Shown: piece by piece, positions 704-22,080 of the stretch
How positions within the stretch are numbered: the first letter of the stretch is position 1
How the letters are laid out: each line of letters starts with the position of its first letter
Assembly: GCA_030765605.1 (NCBI GenBank)
Contig: JAVCCG010000011.1
Location: 1-22,763 of the forward strand
DNA length: 22,763 nt
Direction of reading: 5' to 3'
From: Candidatus Alcyoniella australis
Lineage (GTDB): Bacteria; Lernaellota; Lernaellaia; JAVCCG01; Alcyoniellaceae
Translations under genes and position numbers: made by a program
The notes under the pieces: model-generated
Told to the model about the DNA's origin: nothing
The model's input: only the letters and a program-made list of their open reading frames with translations
Databases searched by the model: none

Positions 704-3400
704 ATGGACGAGGCGCCAAAGGCCCTGGGCCTGAGCTTCGCCGACGCATTGCGCCTCACCGGCGTGCGCCTGGGCGACCGCGCATTGATCGGCCCGCGCA
801 CCGTGCAGATCGACCTCACCGATCAGTGCAACAACAACTGCATCGGCTGCTGGGCGCGTAGCCCGTTTCTGCATTCCACCGACGATTACGATGGTCTGGA
901 CAAGGGCTCGTTGCCGCTGGAAAGTGTCGTTGACCTGCTCGACCAGCTACGCGAAATGCAGGTCGAACAGATTTTCCTTGGCGGCGGCGGGGAACCGCTG
1001 TGCCACCCGGACCTGATCGAGGTCGTGCGTCAGGCCAAGACGCGCGGATTCGAGGTCGTGCTCAACACAAACTTTACCCTGGCCGACGAATCAACACTCT
1101 TCGCGCTTGCAAAGCTTGAGCTGGACCTGCTGATCGTCAGCCTCTGGGCCGGGACGTCCACCACCTACGCGCGAATCCATCCCAACAAATCGGCCGACAC
1201 CTTCAAGCGCATTTGCAACACCTTGATCGCGCTCAAGGACGCCAAGCAGGCGGGCAAAGCGCGCCTGCCGCGGGTCAAGATCTACGACGTGCTGTGCTCG
1301 ATCAACGCCCACGAATTGGAAGAGATGGTGCATTCGGCCCGCGACCTGGGGGCCGAGGAGATCGACTTCGCGGTCTTCGATCCGATCCCCGGCCGCACCG
1401 GTCACCTGATTCTCACACAGCAGCAGATCGCCGAGGTCAAGCGCACCCTGGAGCACCTCGACCGGCCGCCCGGGCTCGAGATCAACGACGCGCTGCTGCT
1501 ACAGCGGCTGAGCAACGTGGACGTGGAAAAAGGCGTCTACGACAACGGCCGCATCGACACGATCCCCTGCTACAGCGGCTGGTTCTACGCGCGGATCACC
1601 ACCACCGGTCAGGTCCACTCCTGCCTCAAGAGCCACCGGATTCCCGTGGGCGAGACCGCGCAGCGGCCGTTCTGGCAGGCCTGGTACGGCGAGGGCCAGG
1701 ACGATTTTCGCCGCAACACGCTTAAGCTCGATTACACCAATCCCTACCTGGCCAAGATCGGCCACGACATCAATTTTGCACTGCCCGGCTGCTACCGTAT
1801 CTGCGACAACCTGGGGATGAACCTCGGAATCCAGCGCCTGGCCCAGTCGCTGCCCGAGATGACCCTGGGCATGCTCGAGCTGATGGAGCAGGCCGCGGCC
1901 CGCGGCGGCGAGCACGCTACACCCGAGGCGCTGCGCGGGATCTACGACCACTTCGCCCAGGTTGCGCAGGGCGGATCGGATGATCAAATTGCGGTCGAGC
2001 CCGTGGGCGACGCGAGTCCGAAGATCGAGCTTAACGTGGCTTCAATCGACGGGGCGTCCGAGCAACTGGCAAAGCTGTGCGACATTGACGTGCCGCGCCT
2101 TGATTTGTTCGACGCCAAGCTGCCCGGAGCGGCGCTGTTGGAGCATGCCAAGCTGTTGCAGCGGATCGGATCGGAGCACGGCGTGGATGTCGTCGGCCCG
2201 GATAGTGAGCTGTGCGAACTGGCGCGTGTGGTGGATCAGCGGCTGGAGCAGGGGACTGATCGCGCGGACCTGTTGCGCGGACTGGGCGCGGTGCTCGGCG
2301 GGGTCTACGCCGGGCCGTACACCCTGCATTTGGACCTGTCCAACCGCTGCGCGTCGGACTGCCGCTACTGCTGGTTCCACTCGCCGCTCTCCGCGCAACG
2401 CGACGATCCCTACCGCCTGCACGGCCGATCCAAGGACGCGCTGCTCGACATCGATTTGTTCGAGGATCTGTTGCGCGATCTGGAGCGCCTGGGCATGCCC
2501 GGCGACGTGGTGCTCTCGGGCAAGGGCGAGCCGCTGTTGCACCCCGATCTCGGGCGGATCCTCGCGGCGCTCACCGCGCGCGGTGCGTTCACCACGTTGA
2601 TCAGCGGCGGCCTGCCGCTTGAGCGCTGTGCCCAGACCCTGGTGCGCGGCGGACTGGGGCGGCTCTACGTCAGCCTCTCGGCCCCGGATGCAGCGACCTA
2701 CGCCCGGCTGCACGATTGCGCCGATCCAAAGGCCGATTTCCAGCGCATCGTACGCGGGATCGAAAAAGTACGAAAGCTTCGCGACGAGGCCGGATCAGCC
2801 AAGCCGGAGCTGGTCTCGGCCAACGTGTTGTGCGCGGCCAACGCCGAGATGCTGATCGAAATCGCAGAGCAGGCCGCGGAGTTGGGCGTCGATTTTCTGC
2901 GGCTGCAACTAATGGCGGTCGAGCCCTACAACGCCGAGCTCAAGCTTGCGCCGCAGCAGATCGAGCTGTTGCGCCGCGATCTGCCCCAGGCGTTGCGCAT
3001 TGCTCAAGACGGCGGTGTGCACTTGATGGACAACCTGGAACAGCAGCTCGAGAGCCTCAGCGAGCAAAGCGGCGACTGGTCGGCGGGCGAGTACGACACG
3101 CGGCCGTGCCTCAACGGCTGGTATTTCAGCCGCGTGTGGGCCGATGGACGGGTCAGCTTCTGCTGCATGCCGCGCATTGTCGGCGATTTGCATCAGACCG
3201 GGTTCTACGAGCTGTGGCGTTCCGAGCAGTATTGCCGCTATCGGCTGGCCGCACGCAGCATGGCGCAGCAAGGATCGATCGAAATGCTAGACGGCACGCC
3301 GCTACGCGGGCCGCAATGCGACCGTTGCCCCAACTACGAGATGAACAGCGCCATGCAGCGAATCCTCGAACAGAACGGGCTGCTGCGCTTCTTAATCTGA
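704..3400 (+). CDS. Twin radical SAM protein: two radical SAM/SPASM-like modules in tandem (898 aa)
   Basis: The open frame extends upstream inside pmbA, but similarity begins only at the ATG at 704, 11 bases after the pmbA stop. Module 1 has a canonical CX3CX2C cluster motif (Cys42, Cys46, Cys49), the GGGGEPL segment expected for SAM contact, and a cysteine-rich tail (Cys289 in IPCYSGWFYARI, Cys307, Cys363, Cys367). Module 2 repeats the plan: Cys549, Cys553, Cys556; SGKGEPLLHPDL; then Cys802 in RPCLNGWYFSRV, Cys820/821, Cys872 and Cys875. The tails resemble SPASM/twitch domains that hold auxiliary Fe-S clusters. Residues about 370-540 form a linker without a recognised fold. Such enzymes cut SAM to a 5'-deoxyadenosyl radical, and many SPASM members modify peptides. 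The substrate cannot be named. The 3' end overlaps the convergent creatininase-family gene by 9 bases. An alternative role as a tRNA or small-molecule enzyme is not excluded. Confidence 0.88.
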   Translation: MDEAPKALGLSFADALRLTGVRLGDRALIGPRTVQIDLTDQCNNNCIGCWARSPFLHSTDDYDGLDKGSLPLESVVDLLDQLREMQVEQIFLGGGGEPLCHPDLIEVVRQAKTRGFEVVLNTNFTLADESTLFALAKLELDLLIVSLWAGTSTTYARIHPNKSADTFKRICNTLIALKDAKQAGKARLPRVKIYDVLCSINAHELEEMVHSARDLGAEEIDFAVFDPIPGRTGHLILTQQQIAEVKRTLEHLDRPPGLEINDALLLQRLSNVDVEKGVYDNGRIDTIPCYSGWFYARITTTGQVHSCLKSHRIPVGETAQRPFWQAWYGEGQDDFRRNTLKLDYTNPYLAKIGHDINFALPGCYRICDNLGMNLGIQRLAQSLPEMTLGMLELMEQAAARGGEHATPEALRGIYDHFAQVAQGGSDDQIAVEPVGDASPKIELNVASIDGASEQLAKLCDIDVPRLDLFDAKLPGAALLEHAKLLQRIGSEHGVDVVGPDSELCELARVVDQRLEQGTDRADLLRGLGAVLGGVYAGPYTLHLDLSNRCASDCRYCWFHSPLSAQRDDPYRLHGRSKDALLDIDLFEDLLRDLERLGMPGDVVLSGKGEPLLHPDLGRILAALTARGAFTTLISGGLPLERCAQTLVRGGLGRLYVSLSAPDAATYARLHDCADPKADFQRIVRGIEKVRKLRDEAGSAKPELVSANVLCAANAEMLIEIAEQAAELGVDFLRLQLMAVEPYNAELKLAPQQIELLRRDLPQALRIAQDGGVHLMDNLEQQLESLSEQSGDWSAGEYDTRPCLNGWYFSRVWADGRVSFCCMPRIVGDLHQTGFYELWRSEQYCRYRLAARSMAQQGSIEMLDGTPLRGPQCDRCPNYEMNSAMQRILEQNGLLRFLI

Positions 3401-4372
3401 ATAGATGTGCAGCCAGTCTTCGACCACGTGGTTCACCGGCCGGTTGAGCAGCACGTCCTTGAGCTTCCACAGCGGCGAGTGGCCGTCGAGCCCTTTGCCC
3501 TGCTCGATGAACTGCCCGACCAGCTCGGCGCAAATGCCGATTAGGTGTTCGAGGATTTGCTCCCCTTGTTTGGCCGATGCCAGGGCCGGATAGCCGAAGT
3601 AGGTGTTGTTGCTGAAGTGCTTCAGCGCATCGAAGATCAGACGCACCGTGGCGATCCTACGGCGCGTGCTGTCGATCAGCCCTTGGCGGCCGTGCTCGGA
3701 GAACAGGAACGATCCGCTTTGCTCGCCGTCCGGATCGAGCCCCGCTGATACGCTGGAGGGCAGGTCCTGCCAGCCCTCGTCCACCAGCTCGGGCCAGAGG
3801 TGCAGGCCCAGCGAGGTCTCGACCATCCCGGCGTGACGGTCCTGGATCGTCTGCTCGCGGGTGATCTTGCGCCCCTTAGTATGTTCTACAGCCTGGAAGA
3901 AGACGTCCTCGGGAATCCGCGCCAGTACCGCGGAGAACAGCGAGATCGCGGCGCAGTCGAAGTTTTTATTCAGCCGTTCGCAGGCGTCCTCCAGAGCGCA
4001 GTTGTGGCGCGGGCCGCCGTGGAACGAGGAGAACGCCAGGCGCGCGAATCCACGTTTGGCGAACGGCAGCATGCTGTGATACGCCACGTCGCGCACCAGG
4101 GTCGGCGGGTAGCTGATCGAGCCTAGGGCCGGCACGCAGTCCGTGGCGATCGGCAGCGGCGGCGCGATCAGGAAGTTCCAGTCGGGCAGCCCCGGCGCGA
4201 CCGCATCCAGGGTGCGATCGAGCACCGCCTGGGCCTCGAACCAGTCCTGGCCCACCGGCAGATGCGGTCCATGGACCTCGATCGGGCTGATCGCGCAGCA
4301 GACCACCGTGTGGCTCGGATCGAACTCGTTTATCGCGTTATGGCTGATTTTCTCGAGCCTAAAAATGTTCAT
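3392..4372 (-). CDS. Creatininase-family metal-dependent amidohydrolase
   Basis: The protein has 326 residues. The ATG at 4372 follows a good ribosome binding site (AGAGGAG, about 6 bases upstream). Family metal ligands are visible: Glu32 and His34 in IEVHGPHLPVGQD, Asp43 of the same segment, His118 in SSFHGGPRHN, and Glu184 in HAGMVETS. The usual NGHGGN is altered to SFHGGPRHN and the C-terminal third is longer than in minimal members. The superfamily includes creatinine amidohydrolase, the formamide hydrolase ArfB of archaeal flavin synthesis, and MftE, the peptidase of mycofactocin maturation. Which branch this belongs to cannot be decided here. The gene is convergent with the twin radical SAM gene and their 3' ends overlap by 9 bases. 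Proximity to PmbA and a SPASM-type enzyme makes a peptide-processing role attractive, but this is inference. Confidence 0.85.
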   Translation of the reverse strand: MNIFRLEKISHNAINEFDPSHTVVCCAISPIEVHGPHLPVGQDWFEAQAVLDRTLDAVAPGLPDWNFLIAPPLPIATDCVPALGSISYPPTLVRDVAYHSMLPFAKRGFARLAFSSFHGGPRHNCALEDACERLNKNFDCAAISLFSAVLARIPEDVFFQAVEHTKGRKITREQTIQDRHAGMVETSLGLHLWPELVDEGWQDLPSSVSAGLDPDGEQSGSFLFSEHGRQGLIDSTRRRIATVRLIFDALKHFSNNTYFGYPALASAKQGEQILEHLIGICAELVGQFIEQGKGLDGHSPLWKLKDVLLNRPVNHVVEDWLHIYSD

Positions 4373-4620: not shown

Positions 4621-5073
4621 GTGAAGAGAATCGCTATTATTTCCCTGGTACTGATCTTCGTTATGGCCGCGTTCGCCGGCTGCCACAAGCACACATATTC
4701 TGTGGGCAACGGCGCTTCGGGCGGCAAGCTGGTCTATGAGAACAACTGGACCGAGCATTGGTTCTTCGGAATCATCGGCGACACCAACGTCAACATCAAA
4801 GAGATCTGCCCCTCGGGCAACGCCACGATCCACGACGAGATCAGCTTCATCAACGGCCTGGTCGGCGCGCTGATCGGTATCATCTACTATCCCTCCACCG
4901 TGACCGTGCGCTGCGACAGCGGCCGCTCCGCGGTGATCGAGATCGATTACGATACCGCCGCGCAGATCGTCTCCGACCCGCGTTTCCTCGACTACGTCGA
5001 GGCCATGGCTCCGCAGATGCTCGAGCAGGCAATGCAGGCCCAGGTCAACGCGACGAACTACCTGTACAACTAA
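4621..5073 (+). CDS. Bor/Iss-family outer-membrane lipoprotein
   Basis: The GTG at 4621 is chosen because GGAGGA sits 6 bases upstream and because it places a lipoprotein signal peptide at the N-terminus: a KRI start, a hydrophobic core and a lipobox ending AFAGC with the lipidated Cys at 21. An ATG at 4570 is in frame but has no binding site and would bury the signal. The mature part follows the pattern of phage lambda Bor: a HTYSV start, EHWFFGIIG, a KEICPSGN segment, then FINGLVGALIGIIYYPSTVTVRC. In E. coli, Bor and Iss are surface lipoproteins linked to serum resistance. Chromosomal homologues are common in environmental bacteria and their role is unknown. The C-terminal extension of about 50 residues is longer than lambda Bor. 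The gene appears monocistronic, with a strong terminator 24 bases after the stop. Confidence 0.75.
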   Translation: MKRIAIISLVLIFVMAAFAGCHKHTYSVGNGASGGKLVYENNWTEHWFFGIIGDTNVNIKEICPSGNATIHDEISFINGLVGALIGIIYYPSTVTVRCDSGRSAVIEIDYDTAAQIVSDPRFLDYVEAMAPQMLEQAMQAQVNATNYLYN

Positions 5074-5096
5074 GATCGACAACCTTTGAACGAACA

Positions 5097-5130
5097 CGGG
5101 CGGTCGCTTCTGCGGCCGCTCGTTTTTTTT
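5097..5130 (+). terminator. Rho-independent terminator after the Bor-like gene
   Basis: An 11-base stem starting at C5097 and GGGCGGTCGC (5098-5107) pairs with GCGGCCGCTC (5112-5121) plus G5122. It uses two G-U pairs, has a TTCT loop, and is followed directly by eight T residues (5123-5130). This is the clearest terminator in the window. Confidence 0.92.
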
Positions 5131-5157
5131 GGCAACCCGACATCGGACTGATATTCT
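5129..5157 (+). promoter_or_regulatory. Putative promoter of the MscS-type channel gene
   Basis: TTGGCA (5129-5134, five of six matches) and TATTCT (5152-5157, four of six) are separated by exactly 17 bases. The -35 box overlaps the last T residues of the preceding terminator. The expected start site at about 5164 is only about 3 bases before the ATG, so the transcript would be leaderless or nearly so. Confidence 0.42.
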
Positions 5158-5166
5158 TCGTAAACC

Positions 5167-6222
5167 ATGACGCAAATGCTGCAAATCGAATTTTTCGACA
5201 ACACGCTGTTGGCCTGGGTCGCGGCCCTGGCCGTGCTGCTGCTGGGCACGGGCCTGCTGTGGCTGCTGCGTCCGCTGACCGTGCGACTGCTCGAGGGCCG
5301 CGTGGCCCGACGCCCCTCGCGCTCGCTGAAGCTGGCGCTGGAAATGGTGCGACGCACCAACTATGCGGTGCTGTTGTTCGTGGCGCTGTGGGCCGCCTGC
5401 GCGCTGCTGGTGATTCCGGCCAAGGTCCGCGGCCTGGTCGGCTCGCTGGCGATGATCATGGTCTTCGTTCAGTTCGGCCTCTGGGGCGGGGTGCTGGTCA
5501 ACAGCGGCGTACGCTCGCTGATGCTCAAGGGGCGCGACGAGACCACGGCCACCGGCCTGTCGGTGATCAGCTTCCTGGCGCGAATCGCGGTCTGGAGCGC
5601 GGTGGCGTTGCTGATCCTGGACAACCTGGGCGTGAACATCACCACCCTGGTGGCGGGCCTGGGGGTCGGCGGAATTGCCATCGGTTTGGCCGTGCAGAAC
5701 ATTTTGGGCGACCTGTTCGCCTCGTTCTCGATCATCCTCGACCGGCCGTTTGAGGTCGGCGATTTCATCATCGTCGACGAGCTGATGGGCAACGTCGAGA
5801 AGATCGGGCTCAAGACCACCCGCGTGCGCAGCCTCAGCGGCGAGCAACTGGTGTTTTCCAACGGCGACCTGCTGCAAAGCCGCATCCGCAACTACAAGCG
5901 AATGGCCGAGCGTCGAGTGTTGTTCGGCTTCGGCGTGCTCTACAGCACGCCCCTTCACAAGCTAGAGCAGATCCCGACGCTGGTGCGCGCGATCATCGAG
6001 GCCCAGGAGCGAGTGCGTTTCGACCGCGCGCATTTCAAGGAGTACGGCGACTCGTCGCTGAACTTCGAGGTGGTCTATTCCGTGCTCGACCGCGACTACA
6101 ACCTCTATATGGATATCCAGCAGGCGATCAACCTGGCGTTGTTCAAGCAGTTCGGCGAGCAGGGGATCGACTTTGCCTTCCCCACGCTCACAGTACACAT
6201 GGTTCAGCCGCCCGCTGACTAG
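5167..6222 (+). CDS. MscS-family mechanosensitive ion channel
   Basis: The protein has 351 residues. Hydrophobic segments occur near residues 15-38, 60-80, 90-115 and 135-155. They are followed at about 155-190 by the MscS pore helix and start of the beta domain: GVNITTLVAGLGVGGIAIG, then AVQNILGDLFASFSIILDRPF, here given as two adjoining pieces. The cytoplasmic cage follows with VGDFIIVDE, TRVRSL and the FSNGDLL segment. MscS channels open under membrane tension to release solutes in hypo-osmotic shock. The length and four-helix N-terminus match the small, bacterial YbdG/YnaI-like group rather than minimal MscS. No Shine-Dalgarno sequence precedes the ATG at 5167. An upstream terminator and a tight promoter make this an independent unit. 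The gene is convergent with the corA remnant. Confidence 0.9.
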   Translation: MTQMLQIEFFDNTLLAWVAALAVLLLGTGLLWLLRPLTVRLLEGRVARRPSRSLKLALEMVRRTNYAVLLFVALWAACALLVIPAKVRGLVGSLAMIMVFVQFGLWGGVLVNSGVRSLMLKGRDETTATGLSVISFLARIAVWSAVALLILDNLGVNITTLVAGLGVGGIAIGLAVQNILGDLFASFSIILDRPFEVGDFIIVDELMGNVEKIGLKTTRVRSLSGEQLVFSNGDLLQSRIRNYKRMAERRVLFGFGVLYSTPLHKLEQIPTLVRAIIEAQERVRFDRAHFKEYGDSSLNFEVVYSVLDRDYNLYMDIQQAINLALFKQFGEQGIDFAFPTLTVHMVQPPAD

Positions 6223-6253
6223 CCATACTATTCGCGACGCTTTAGCAGCAGCG

Positions 6254-6280
6254 CCGGCTATGAGCCGGTGCAAAGCTCGC
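6254..6280 (+). repeat. Intergenic repeat, copy 1 (hairpin plus GCAAAGCTCGC)
   Basis: CCGGCT-ATG-AGCCGG forms a 6-bp hairpin (6254-6268), followed by GCAAAGCTCGC (6270-6280). All 27 bases recur identically at 11203-11229. Related copies lie at 11292-11320 and, inverted, at 19755-19765 and 19859-19869. All are between genes. Confidence 0.8.
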
Positions 6281-6289
6281 GGAACTCTA

Positions 6290-6309
6290 TGGTCGTAGCG
6301 CCACGACCA
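6290..6309. other. Hairpin between convergent mscS-type and corA genes
   Basis: TGGTCGT (6290-6296) and ACGACCA (6303-6309) form a perfect 7-bp stem with a 6-base loop. The position between convergent 3' ends suits a bidirectional transcription end. No adjacent T-run supports an intrinsic terminator, although GTTTTACTTTA begins 14 bases further on. Confidence 0.4.
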
Positions 6310-6330
6310 GCGAACTGCGCGAGTTTTACT

Positions 6331-7343
6331 TTACTCCCCACCACCTCCTGGCGTGGGTTTGTCCCGGTCGCGACACAGCCAACCGCGCCGCCAGAAGAAC
6401 AGCACCATCGCCGCGGTCATCAGCGCCATCAAAGTTAGGGCGAACGGGTAGCCCCAGTACCAGCTAAGCTCGGGCATGTTCAGCGGCGAGATCTCGGGGT
6501 CGAAGTTCATCCCGTAAAGCCCGGCGATGAACGACAGCGGAATGAAGATCGTGGCGATGATCGTCAGCAACTTCATCACCTCGTTCATCCGATTGCTGAC
6601 CATCGACAGGTAGAGATCCATCAGGCCCATCGCCACTTCGCGGCTGCTCTCGATTAGCTCGATGATCTGCACGATGTGGTCGTAGGCGTCGCGCAGGTAG
6701 AGCCGGGTGACGTCCTGCACCAGCGTGCTGTCGTCGCGCATCAGCGAGCTCAGCGCCTCACGCAGCGGCCAGATCGAGCGACGTATGGCCAGCAGCTCGC
6801 CCTTTATCGTGTGGATCTGCGCGCTGTGGCTGCGTTCGGATTTATCGGCAATCTGCTGTTCGAGCACGTCCAGCTGGTCGGAGTAATGGTCCAACGCCGG
6901 GAAGTAGTGGTCGATCGCCGTGTCGAGCAGCGCGTAGGCCAGGTAGTCCGAACCGCCCAGGTGGATCTTGCGCCCCTGTCCCTTGCGAATTCGCTCGCGC
7001 ACCAGGTCGAGGAACGCGCTTTCGCGCTCGTGAAATGAGATCACGAAGTCCTTGCCGAAAAACAGGCTGACCTGCTCGTAGCCCGGCTGGGCCTGCATGT
7101 GGATCAGCGGCGTGACCATGAAGTAGTTGCTCTCGAAGTCCTCGACCTTGGCGCGTTGCGGGATGTTGACCACATCCTCCATGGCCAGCGGATAAAGCTC
7201 AAAATCCCCGGCCATTTACCGCGCTGCTGCACGATCTTCTCGAGGCTAACCTCGTTGCGCTCGATCAATTGTTCCGGACCAAAGGCGATCATTCGCAGCC
7301 TGGGCTTAGCCCAGGTCGGATCGACGATCAGCGATCCGGGCAT
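6331..7343 (-). pseudogene. corA: CorA-type Mg2+/Co2+ transporter gene with internal deletion and frameshift
   Basis: The C-terminal part reads continuously from an ATG at 7215 to the stop at 6331 (294 codons). It starts at LYPLAMEDVVNIPQRAKVEDF, given here as the first recognisable CorA segment, and ends with two membrane helices and the diagnostic YGMNF motif (near 6502-6517). The N-terminus characteristic of CorA lies upstream in another frame from the ATG at 7343: SLIVDPTWAKPRL, RMIAFGPEQLIER, then KIVQQRGKWP. The two meet at about 7205-7215. The join lacks the roughly 20-25 residues (the W-V-D-V-DGL region) normally found between KWP and the LxPLAMEDV segment. The lesion is therefore a deletion that also shifts the frame. 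A shorter protein from 7215 is conceivable, but that ATG has no convincing ribosome binding site. An assembly error is the main alternative. Confidence 0.75.
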
Positions 7344-7444
7344 CAGTCCCGGAGCTTTACGGTTTTTACTTTATCGCGTCTTGTGCCCGTCCGCCGATTG
7401 ACCCATGCCGACCCCCGACAGTTGATCGCTTACGATATATCTCG

Positions 7445-18717: not shown

Positions 18718-18746
18718 TTGACCTGTGCCGAGGATCGTCCTAACTT
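18718..18746 (+). promoter_or_regulatory. Candidate promoter of the UbiA-family gene
   Basis: TTGACC (18718-18723, five of six matches) and TAACTT (18741-18746, three of six) are spaced by 17 bases. The start site at about 18753 would lie just before the tandem ATGs at 18758 and 18761, again nearly leaderless. It would lie downstream of the alternative GTG at 18725. Confidence 0.3.
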
Positions 18747-18757
18747 CTCTGGCGCTG

Positions 18758-19693
18758 ATGATGACGAATAAGCTCAAACTCTACTGGGAATTTTGTCGGC
18801 CATTCACCCTGATTCCGCCTGCCGTGGGCATGATCTCCGGCGGGCTGACCGGCCTGGGCGCGATCACGCCCGACGCCGGGCGCTTGGTCAGCTCGTGGGG
18901 CGACGGCCCGGGGATGATCGCCGCGCGGATCGTGGCCGGTGGACTGATGGCGATGTTCCTCAACGGCTTCAGCAATACGCTGAACCAGATCACCGACATC
19001 AAGCTCGATCTAATCAACAAGCCCGACCGGCCGCTGTGCGACGGCCGAATGCAGCGCAACGAGGCCTGGGTCTTGACCCTGGTGCTGCTGGCGGTGGCGT
19101 TGGGCCTGGCGCTGTTCGTCGGCTGGCAATGCCTGATGATCGTGGCGATCACCTCGGTGTTCACCTGGAGCTACTCGGCCAAGCCGCTGTGGATGAAGAG
19201 CCGCGGGATCTGGGCCAACCTGACCATCGCCATTCCGCGCGGCGTTCTGCTCAAGGTCTGCGGCTGGAGCGCGGTCAAGGGGATCTTCACCGCCGAGCCG
19301 TGGATCATCGGCAGCGTGTTCGGCCTGTTTCTGCTCGGCGCCTCGACCACCAAGGATTACGCGGATATCCAGGGCGACAGCGCCGGCGGCTGCCGCACGC
19401 TCCCGGTAATCTACGGCGTGCGCACCAGCGCCTACATGATCAGCCCGTTTTTCGTGCTGCCTTTTATCTGGCTGATCGTGGGCACGCAGCTGGGCCTGTT
19501 CACCGGCGATCCGCTGATCCTCACCTGCCTGGGCGCGCTGCTCGCGCTGTGGGGCGTGTGGGTCGTGGCCGGGATTCTCAAGGACCCCGAGGCACTGGCC
19601 GGCAAGGAAAACCACCCCTCCTGGACCCACATGTACCTGATGATGCTCACCCTGCAATTCGGCTTCGCCCTGGCTTACCTGGTCCACATCTAA
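18758..19693 (+). CDS. UbiA-family prenyltransferase
   Basis: The ATG at 18758 gives 311 residues. ATG 18761 is equally possible, and a GTG at 18725 is in frame but less likely given the promoter position. There is no Shine-Dalgarno sequence. The first Asp-rich motif NQITDIKLD (Asn76, Asp80, Asp84) is followed by NKPDRPL. The second, KDYADIQGD (Asp200, Asp203, Asp207), is followed by RTLPVIYG. Both bind the Mg-diphosphate of a prenyl donor. About eight to nine membrane helices are visible. UbiA enzymes attach prenyl chains to aromatic rings (ubiquinone, menaquinone, tocopherol, chlorophyll) or to glycerol phosphate. The acceptor cannot be told from these motifs. A polyprenyl diphosphate synthase, the likely donor-maker, follows on the same strand. 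Confidence 0.9.
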   Translation: MMTNKLKLYWEFCRPFTLIPPAVGMISGGLTGLGAITPDAGRLVSSWGDGPGMIAARIVAGGLMAMFLNGFSNTLNQITDIKLDLINKPDRPLCDGRMQRNEAWVLTLVLLAVALGLALFVGWQCLMIVAITSVFTWSYSAKPLWMKSRGIWANLTIAIPRGVLLKVCGWSAVKGIFTAEPWIIGSVFGLFLLGASTTKDYADIQGDSAGGCRTLPVIYGVRTSAYMISPFFVLPFIWLIVGTQLGLFTGDPLILTCLGALLALWGVWVVAGILKDPEALAGKENHPSWTHMYLMMLTLQFGFALAYLVHI

Positions 19694-19869: not shown

Positions 19870-19957
19870 TGCGGCCCAAAGACGCTGGTTGCGAGCAGAT
19901 TGTGCGTCGTAGTAGAAGCACCATGAGTAATACGGGCTGATGTGCAGCCGAGGTAGT

Positions 19958-20842
19958 ATGGAGTTCGATATCCAAAAAGATCTGGCGATAAAACGCCGCA
20001 TGATCGAGCAGGCGCTGCAGGACAACCTGCCGGGCGGCGAGCAGGTCCCGGCGGTGTTGGCCGACGCGTTGCGCTACGCGGCGATGGGCGGCGGCAAGCG
20101 CTTGCGCCCGGCGCTGTGTCTGGCCGCGGCCCAGGCGTTGGGACACGATCAGCAGCAGGTGCTTCCCGCGGCCTGCGGTGTGGAGTTCGCCCACACCAGC
20201 TCGCTGTTGCTCGACGACCTGCCGTGCATGGACGACCACGCTACGCGGCGCGGCAAGGCCACGACCCACAAGGTCTTCGGCGAATCCAACGCGATTCTGG
20301 CGGCGATGTCCGCTCTGAGCCACGGTTTCGAGCTGGTGGCACTCAACGCGAGGCAACTCCAGGCGCCGGCCGACGCGATACTGGCCGCGATAAACGAGCT
20401 GGGTCAGGCTGTGGGAGCGGCCGGGCTGTGCGGCGGCCAGCAGCTGGACTTGGTCAGCCAGACAGAAGAGGTGGACCTCAATACTTTGCAACAGATCCAT
20501 CGCCAGAAGACCGGCCTGCTGTTCGTGGCCGCAGTGGCGATTCCTGCATTGCTGCTGGGTGCGGAAGAGCAGATCGTCGACGCCCTGCGCTCGTACGCCC
20601 GGCGACTGGGCCAGGCGTTTCAGATCAGCGACGATATTATCGACGTGGCCGAGGACCGCGCATTCGAGGCGCCGGTACGGCACTTAAGCGGAGGCAACCT
20701 GGCGGGCATGCTCGGCATCCCCGCGGCGCGCGGCCTGGTCAACGACCTGATCGCCTCGGCCAAAGAGGATGTAGAGCCTCTGGGCGAAGCGGGCCGAACC
20801 CTGATCGAGCTGGCCGAGCTGATCCGCGCGCGTAACGACTGA
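19958..20842 (+). CDS. ispA: Short-chain polyprenyl (farnesyl/geranylgeranyl) diphosphate synthase
   Basis: The ATG at 19958 has GAGGT 3 bases upstream and yields 294 residues starting MEFDIQKDL. An in-frame ATG at 19940 lacks a binding site. The first Asp-rich motif is DDLPCMDD (86-93), the bacterial form with two residues inserted, followed by RRGKATTHKVFGE. The second is DDIID (225-229) in QISDDIIDVAED. GGGKRLRP near residue 45 and the length are typical of IspA-type farnesyl synthases; some geranylgeranyl synthases look the same. It condenses isopentenyl diphosphate with allylic diphosphates in the cytoplasm. Residues about 3-5 before the first Asp motif (SSLLL) do not fix product length with confidence. 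It is followed 14 bases later by the radical SAM gene. Confidence 0.92.
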   Translation: MEFDIQKDLAIKRRMIEQALQDNLPGGEQVPAVLADALRYAAMGGGKRLRPALCLAAAQALGHDQQQVLPAACGVEFAHTSSLLLDDLPCMDDHATRRGKATTHKVFGESNAILAAMSALSHGFELVALNARQLQAPADAILAAINELGQAVGAAGLCGGQQLDLVSQTEEVDLNTLQQIHRQKTGLLFVAAVAIPALLLGAEEQIVDALRSYARRLGQAFQISDDIIDVAEDRAFEAPVRHLSGGNLAGMLGIPAARGLVNDLIASAKEDVEPLGEAGRTLIELAELIRARND

Positions 20843-20856
20843 ATGTGAAGGATTAA

Positions 20857-22080
20857 ATGGAACGCGACCTGAGCCGCAACCCCGCACTGCTCAAGCTCGA
20901 GCTGTACTGCAAGGGGATGCGCATCGACGATAGTTGTAAACGGCTGGACGATGACGGTCGGCCGATTTTGCGCACCCGCGCCGGACTGGGCTCCGGGCTT
21001 GAGCTGGTGCTGCCCCACGGCCTGTGGACCAACGTCCCGGTGCTCGAGAAGTTCGCCCATACCAGCCCGTTTGCACTGGTCCATCGCGATGGCGAGTATT
21101 TGATCGAGCGCGACGGGAAGCCGGTGAGCAGCGTTCAGATCCCGCCCGAGCCCGCGTTCTACCGCCGTTTGACGTCCAGCGGACGGCTGATGAGCCGCGT
21201 GGGCGTGCTGCAGGGAACCTACCTCGGGATCTACCCCACCGGGATCTGCGCCCACTGGCTTCGCGAGCCGCGGGTCAACTGCACGTTTTGCTCGGTGGGG
21301 CTCAACCTGGGCAATCAGGAGGAGCAGGAGAAGTCGATCCAGGAGGTGGTCGAGACCACCCTGGCCGCGATGGAAGAGGTGGGCATCACCTACGTACATT
21401 TCAACACCGGCTACTACGATGGCGACACATATCTGGACGAGCTCGAGCCGTTCATCAAGGCGGTCAAGCGCGAGACCGGGCTGCTGATCGGCGTGCAGAC
21501 ACCGCCGCACCCCGACCTCAAACGCTACGACCGGCTGCGGCGGATGGGCGTAAATCAAGTCAGCTTCTGCTTTGAGCTGTGGGACCGCGACTGCTTTGTC
21601 AAACAATGCCCGGGCAAGGCCGAGAAGGTCGGCATTGAGCGCTACCTCGACGCCATCGCCTATTGCGCGCCGATTTTCGATACCACCAACGGCGAGATCA
21701 TCGCCGGGCTCGAGCCGGTGGCCACGACCCTCGAGGCCGTCGAGTGGATCACCGACGTGGGCGCGATTCCAACGGTCTGCGTGTTCCGGCCCCTGCGCGG
21801 AACAGACCTGGAGGATCATCCTCCGCCGGACTCCGAAGAACTGATCCCGGTCTTCAAGCGGCTCTACGAATCTTGCATGGAAAAGAAGCTGCCGCTGGGC
21901 ATCGCGCCGAACATCAACGTCTCGATCATCCTCAAACCCGAGGAGTGCCGTTGGTTCAGCGACGACCCGGGCCGCTTCTGGAAGCAGGATCTCAAGGCGT
22001 TGTTAATGCGGCAGGCGCTCAAGGGACTGCTCGGAGTTCAACAACGCCGGGCATGGCTGTATCGTAGGATCGGAATCTGA
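20857..22080 (+). CDS. Radical SAM protein with atypical CX10CX2C cluster motif
   Basis: The 407-residue product starts at the ATG at 20857, with GAAGGA 5 bases upstream. The only suitable cluster site is Cys131, Cys142 and Cys145 in GICAHWLREPRVNCTFCSVG, which is CX10CX2C rather than CX3CX2C. Long first spacings are known in other radical SAM families, such as CX9CX2C in Elp3. Downstream are a YVHFNTGYYDGDTYLDEL segment, a PPHPDLKRYDRLRRMGVNQV strand-helix, and an ELWDRDCFVKQCPGK stretch that resembles the back half of radical SAM TIM barrels. The first 115 residues form a separate beta-rich domain of unknown type. There is no SPASM-like tail. Genes for prenyl diphosphate synthesis and prenyl transfer lie upstream and a zinc-ribbon gene follows 7 bases later. 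Substrate unknown. Confidence 0.85.
   Translation: MERDLSRNPALLKLELYCKGMRIDDSCKRLDDDGRPILRTRAGLGSGLELVLPHGLWTNVPVLEKFAHTSPFALVHRDGEYLIERDGKPVSSVQIPPEPAFYRRLTSSGRLMSRVGVLQGTYLGIYPTGICAHWLREPRVNCTFCSVGLNLGNQEEQEKSIQEVVETTLAAMEEVGITYVHFNTGYYDGDTYLDELEPFIKAVKRETGLLIGVQTPPHPDLKRYDRLRRMGVNQVSFCFELWDRDCFVKQCPGKAEKVGIERYLDAIAYCAPIFDTTNGEIIAGLEPVATTLEAVEWITDVGAIPTVCVFRPLRGTDLEDHPPPDSEELIPVFKRLYESCMEKKLPLGIAPNINVSIILKPEECRWFSDDPGRFWKQDLKALLMRQALKGLLGVQQRRAWLYRRIGI

Follow-up and report, generated by a model that had tools for sequence, protein, structure and literature searches.

A conserved radical SAM protein of Candidatus Lernaellota with two twitch-type modules of probably separate ancestry

The window (the whole stretch of DNA that was analysed, 22,763 nucleotides) comes from a draft genome of 4.29 Mb that is 98% complete. 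Near its left end lie the 3' end of a TldE/PmbA gene (42-692; Pfam, 249 bits) and, in a different frame, a gene for a fused double radical SAM/twitch protein of 898 amino acids (704-3400, + strand), identified by its single open frame, by Pfam and by orthologues in five further genomes. The same frame stays open upstream to the window edge, amounting to 1132 amino acids in all. ATG704 is the most plausible start codon, because the TldE/PmbA stop lies 11 bp before it and the start regions of the orthologues agree with it. Pfam recognizes two Radical_SAM stretches in the protein (jointly 5e-35), the second at residues 545-692, and one SPASM domain in the C-terminal (C) half (802-855). An earlier interpretation made from the letters alone (the sequence-only reading) had described two complete radical SAM modules in one chain of 898 residues, and on this point the frame, the Pfam matches, the structural models and the orthologues agree.

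The N-terminal (N) module (residues 12-385; 737-1858, +), a radical SAM barrel with a twitch tail, is delimited by its AlphaFold2 model, its structural match to BlsE and its place in a tree clade with 100/100 support. Its CxxxCxxC motif (C42, C46 and C49; 827-850, +), the predicted SAM-binding 4Fe-4S site, is invariant in 72/72 modules of the family alignment. The first part of its tail, C289-x12-G302-x4-C307 (1568-1624, +), is invariant in the six orthologues and nearly so family-wide, and the second, C363-x3-C367 (1790-1804, +), is evident from the orthologue and family alignments. A poorly conserved linker follows (approximately residues 386-455; 1859-2068, +), which differs in length among the orthologues and is modelled with a pLDDT under 50. 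Beyond it, approximately residues 456-530 (2069-2293, +) align weakly to the N-termini of stand-alone enzymes of the C type and X type; matches from other genomes start within this region, which is modelled, at low confidence, as helical. The C module (residues 531-898; 2294-3397, +), again a barrel with a twitch tail, is supported by a six-strand model, a match to BlsE and Pfam. Its CxxxCxxC motif (C549, C553 and C556; 2348-2371, +) and the two parts of its tail, C802 ... C820, C821 (3107-3166, +) and C872-x2-C875 (3317-3328, +), were placed by the same orthologue and family alignments.

Fourteen cysteines (42/46/49, 289/307/363/367, 549/553/556 and 802/820/872/875) are invariant in the six orthologous fusions, as is C821, a fifth cysteine in the tail of the C half. 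The six cluster cysteines lie exactly where they had first been noticed, and their invariance places the two-module pattern far from chance. Both halves also retain a G-x-G-[E/D]-P motif in 6/6 orthologues. Invariant cysteines, Pfam, six-strand barrels and matches in the PDB thus all identify each half as a radical SAM protein. The suggestion that both copies stayed catalytically plausible fits this conservation, every radical SAM and twitch cysteine being kept in the six orthologues, and both modules are plausibly active.

The two cysteine-rich tails had been called SPASM-like. Their positions hold, PCYSGWFYARI beginning at P288 (Cys 289) and PCLNGWYFSRV at P801 (Cys 802); the SPASM assignment does not. 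SPASM domains are defined by a seven-cysteine C-terminal motif, C...GX4C...CX2CX5CX3C...C, and two auxiliary clusters, and this full motif is absent from both tails, which have four cysteines in common, despite the Pfam SPASM match in the C half. A twitch domain is a shortened SPASM domain with a single auxiliary cluster, for which BtrN supplies four cysteines as ligands (PMC9012708). Four conserved tail cysteines per half, the candidate ligands for one cluster, correspond to this truncated form, so both halves are of the twitch type and the chain should carry four clusters in total, as judged from the cysteine pattern. BtrN itself, a twitch radical SAM dehydrogenase of 2-deoxy-scyllo-inosamine, resembles each half in its fold and in its single, four-cysteine auxiliary cluster (PMC9012708) but has only one module.

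Modelled alone by AlphaFold2 with 31 sequences, the N half reached a pLDDT of 93.8 and a pTM of 0.92; the full-length model, built from an alignment limited to six sequences, is for that reason poor in the region of the N tail. The model of the C module has six barrel strands, with a pLDDT mostly of 80-95 across the barrel, and the second half, whose barrel the sequence-only reading had left to structure prediction, does have one. The halves were compared through the alignment of each to the same PDB chain, 7vob. BlsE is the top structural match of both (N half, Z 27.7 over 303 residues at 2.8 A; C half, Z 26.6 over 305 residues at 3.0 A), followed by DesII (Z 25.4 and 24.3, respectively) and then by SkfB (Z 24.6 and 22.2), SuiB and PqqE; BtrN is less similar than BlsE (Z 20.5 and 18.7). 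BlsE is a cytosylglucuronate decarboxylase and DesII a TDP-sugar ammonia-lyase, both thus acting on sugars, while SkfB is a maturase of ribosomally synthesized and post-translationally modified peptides (RiPPs). For the N half, DesII and SkfB differ by under 1 Z. Moreover, BlsE and DesII are single enzymes whose NCBIfam models score the halves far under cut-off (BlsE, 31.8 and 23.5 bits of 400; DesII, 34.9 bits of 450 for the N half). A match between predicted folds and BlsE or DesII would not in itself prove a sugar substrate.

The same two modules occur in a single frame of 912-1183 amino acids in five of the six other genomes of the class (G001, G002, G003, G004 and G006). With the source genome, the fusion is found in six of seven class genomes (FEN-1099, Candidatus Lernaellota); one orthologue lies on the public contig PMZC01000276.1, labelled 'Deltaproteobacteria bacterium isolate fen_1099'. 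FEN-1099 has been equated with the proposed phylum Candidatus Lernaellota (2026; PMC13248872). The seventh genome, G005, is 77% complete and carries an N half alone (L045, from 9525), interrupted by a frame break; no C half was found in this draft. The broken N half is either a draft error or a decaying copy, and the link between the modules may not be essential or the draft may be faulty. A search of 386 genomes spread over many families gave no further case of the pairing. A scan of genome contigs with a single protein as the query gave no matches, and an alignment-based scan yielded 17 loci, none with this fusion outside FEN-1099, by a short-pattern method that can miss members. A search of plasmids returned weak partial matches only. 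Because the one-frame fusion recurs in separately assembled genomes, assembly error is ruled out: the fusion is real, and the concern that two adjacent genes had been merged in assembly does not apply.

The sequence-only reading had taken the two modules for a likely internal duplication and asked whether they are sisters in a radical SAM tree. They are 26% identical (23-29% within single proteins), as compared with means of 58% between orthologous N halves and 53% between orthologous C halves, and each half is nearer to separate proteins than to its partner. A maximum-likelihood tree of 72 modules places them on separate branches. The N halves (clade 100/100) group with modules fused to GT1, carbamoyltransferase or B12-radical SAM domains and with tandem modules; the C halves group with stand-alone enzymes, one of them from G193, and with the X and Y paralogues (branch 100/99). 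Forcing the halves to be sisters costs 241 log-likelihood units (AU test, p = 4.6e-44). In the best tree the stand-alone enzyme from G193 nests inside the C-half group; an alternative uniting all C halves stays acceptable (AU test, p = 0.29). By tree and AU test, internal duplication is ruled out. That the gene is the product of tandem duplication, or an artefact of assembly or annotation, might be read from the like fold and similar motifs of the halves, and is extremely improbable given the rejection of sister halves and the presence of the fusion in six separately assembled genomes. As far as its phylogeny can tell, the gene is instead an end-to-end fusion of two old paralogues, which is also consistent with the N-terminal region of a C-type enzyme being kept inside the fusion.

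No named family exceeds its cut-off among the listed matches to the window protein. Whether searched whole or as separate halves, the protein scores highest in NCBIfam against TIGR04317, a radical SAM maturase of tungsten enzymes, which is thus the nearest named sequence family. A role in maturing tungsten or another metal cofactor would fit this match and the occurrence of AFOR-type tungsten enzymes in four of seven class genomes, the source genome among them. However, the score of 171 bits (96 and 79 for the halves) is well under the cut-off of 380, and the distribution of the fusion does not track AFOR enzymes: G001 and G003 (99% complete) carry it with no AFOR match, and AFOR genes and fusion lie on different contigs. 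We regard this role as decidedly improbable. Models of CofG and CofH were absent from all 22 C-half matches and from the best 25 of 40 N-half matches. PADLOC matches to viperin (70 bits) were read as the common radical SAM core only, and a defence function was rejected.

The fused gene has no conserved neighbours across the class, and there was no glycan gene among the neighbours examined. In the window a creatininase-family gene (3392-4372, -) is convergent with it, and in G002 and G006 only, a third radical SAM/SPASM gene overlaps its stop by GTGA (G006 and G002: L040 6237-7271, +; L041 7590-8624, -). With TldE/PmbA ending 11 bp ahead of the start codon and the creatininase-family gene downstream, the locus invites comparison with mycofactocin: the protein could be a RiPP maturase whose two sites introduce a pair of crosslinks or oxidations into a single ribosomal peptide, which TldE/PmbA and the creatininase would then process. 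The positions of SkfB, SuiB and PqqE, next after BlsE and DesII in the structural ranking, also point this way. We consider such a role unlikely, since neither neighbour lies beside the fusion in the other genomes examined, the creatininase scores 45.8 bits against an MftE cut-off of 172, the Pfam search of the window protein gave no PqqD/RRE match, and the region preceding the C module is modelled, at low confidence, as all-helical, unlike an RRE.

It may also be asked whether only one half is catalytic, with the other serving as an electron relay, a chaperone or a substrate-docking domain in an intramolecular pseudo-dimer. The fold common to both halves and the faster evolution of the C half (53% identity among C halves vs 58% among N halves) are compatible with this arrangement, which is nevertheless doubtful, as 6/6 orthologues retain the radical SAM and twitch cysteines and the G-x-G-[E/D]-P motif in each half, with no decay of either site. 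An intramolecular pair of like domains, as the sequence-only reading had also envisaged, is conceivable, but the signature residues retained past strand six of the barrel differ between the halves and make it less likely: the N half has D226-P-I-P-x-R-T232 (DPIPGRT, 226-232, in the window protein) and the C half A738, E740, Y742 and N743. Radical SAM barrels usually bind substrate just past this strand, and these half-specific invariants suggest that each site probably catalyses a step of its own.

We therefore favour, with a probability of about 55%, the view that the gene is an ancient fusion, passed on by vertical descent, in which two complete radical SAM enzymes of the twitch type, from different branches of the same family, would carry out successive steps on a carbohydrate-like substrate. 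Sequence and model give each half its own predicted SAM-cleaving site, a (beta/alpha)6 barrel of its own and four conserved residues that could ligate one auxiliary cluster. Each half would cleave its own SAM and abstract a hydrogen atom, and the all-cysteine auxiliary cluster would, in the way proposed for BtrN, accept the electron from the substrate. The halves might then act in turn on different positions or intermediates of a single pathway, like the domains of FbiC. FbiC, whose total length is similar to that of the window protein, offers a precedent that makes successive modification plausible. This FO synthase, composed of CofG and CofH, likewise has two radical SAM domains per chain and uses two 5'-deoxyadenosyl radicals (PMC11917521). 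Its functions exist as separate polypeptides in other organisms and are split in archaea (PMC11917521). Unlike FbiC, the window protein carries a twitch tail on each half.

The nature of the substrate, for which a nucleotide sugar or a lipid-linked glycan may be suggested with less confidence, is a reading that rests on paralogues and fold, since the neighbours of the fused gene include no glycan gene. In addition to BlsE and DesII as top matches, it draws on the nearest paralogues, which are encoded among glycan-building genes or form fusions with them. Next to genes for an ABC-2 exporter and a Wzt-like ATPase, the parts of a Wzm/Wzt glycan exporter, lie those for the X and Y paralogues of the C half and for one further radical SAM/SPASM protein. 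Relatives of the N half at a single locus, L009, share it with NAD-dependent sugar epimerases and a full carbamoyltransferase; these are fusions of GT1 to radical SAM/SPASM and of the N-terminal part of a carbamoyltransferase to radical SAM/SPASM (1387-4107 and 4736-7426, +).

Further fusions of two or three related SPASM/twitch modules per chain were found in Omnitrophota, Calescamantes and G383. Two modules are fused at L122 and L125 and three at L123, L127 (4936-9222, +) and L131, while two modules are joined to a B12-radical SAM protein at L113 (758-5353, -) and to a radical SAM domain at L132 (3736-8253, +). According to the tree, these arose separately from the window fusion: the first modules cluster close to GT-fused relatives and the second ones with those fused to carbamoyltransferase, and neither kind falls in the branch that contains the window protein's C half. 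Related modules are also encoded by separate genes that overlap by GTGA (L115, around 8121; L121, around 1066), in G193 and in the record of a Methanosarcinales archaeon, where the overlap likely represents translational coupling before fusion. Proteins encoded side by side in one lineage and joined as domains in another usually serve one pathway, and these neighbouring and fused modules lend support to successive action, more so for the family than for the window protein.

A literature search on tandem or fused radical SAM/SPASM proteins returned nothing on this architecture, many papers being outside its reach. The architecture is well supported, and two radical SAM domains per chain are already known from FbiC; the pairing of two twitch radical SAM enzymes in a single chain seems to be a novel variant. 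Radical SAM chains with two active sites are rare, FbiC being one documented case. The phylum-wide fusion of non-sister modules and the independent fusions with two, three and four sites suggest that the family often works in fixed succession. A broader and more tentative possibility is that the protein belongs to undescribed radical SAM assembly chains of candidate phyla, which would modify a glycan by consecutive radical reactions, using two to four sites per polypeptide or overlapping genes. If so, fusion would replace the diffusion of reactive intermediates. The fused, overlapping and separate versions form a natural contrast for testing the channelling of intermediates, and these proteins offer entry points to the surface-glycan chemistry of Lernaellota and Omnitrophota.

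Two other radical SAM genes of the source genome deserve mention. On another of its contigs (G000, C119), L010 (1953-7997, -) encodes a protein of 2014 amino acids whose four Radical_SAM domains are accompanied by two or more B12-binding domains and a single SPASM/twitch tail; relatives with frames of 1544-2106 amino acids occur in 6/6 other class genomes. In the window, a gene for a variant radical SAM protein (20857-22080, +; NF045502, above cut-off) directly follows UbiA prenyltransferase and polyprenyl synthase genes (18725-19693 and 19940-20842).
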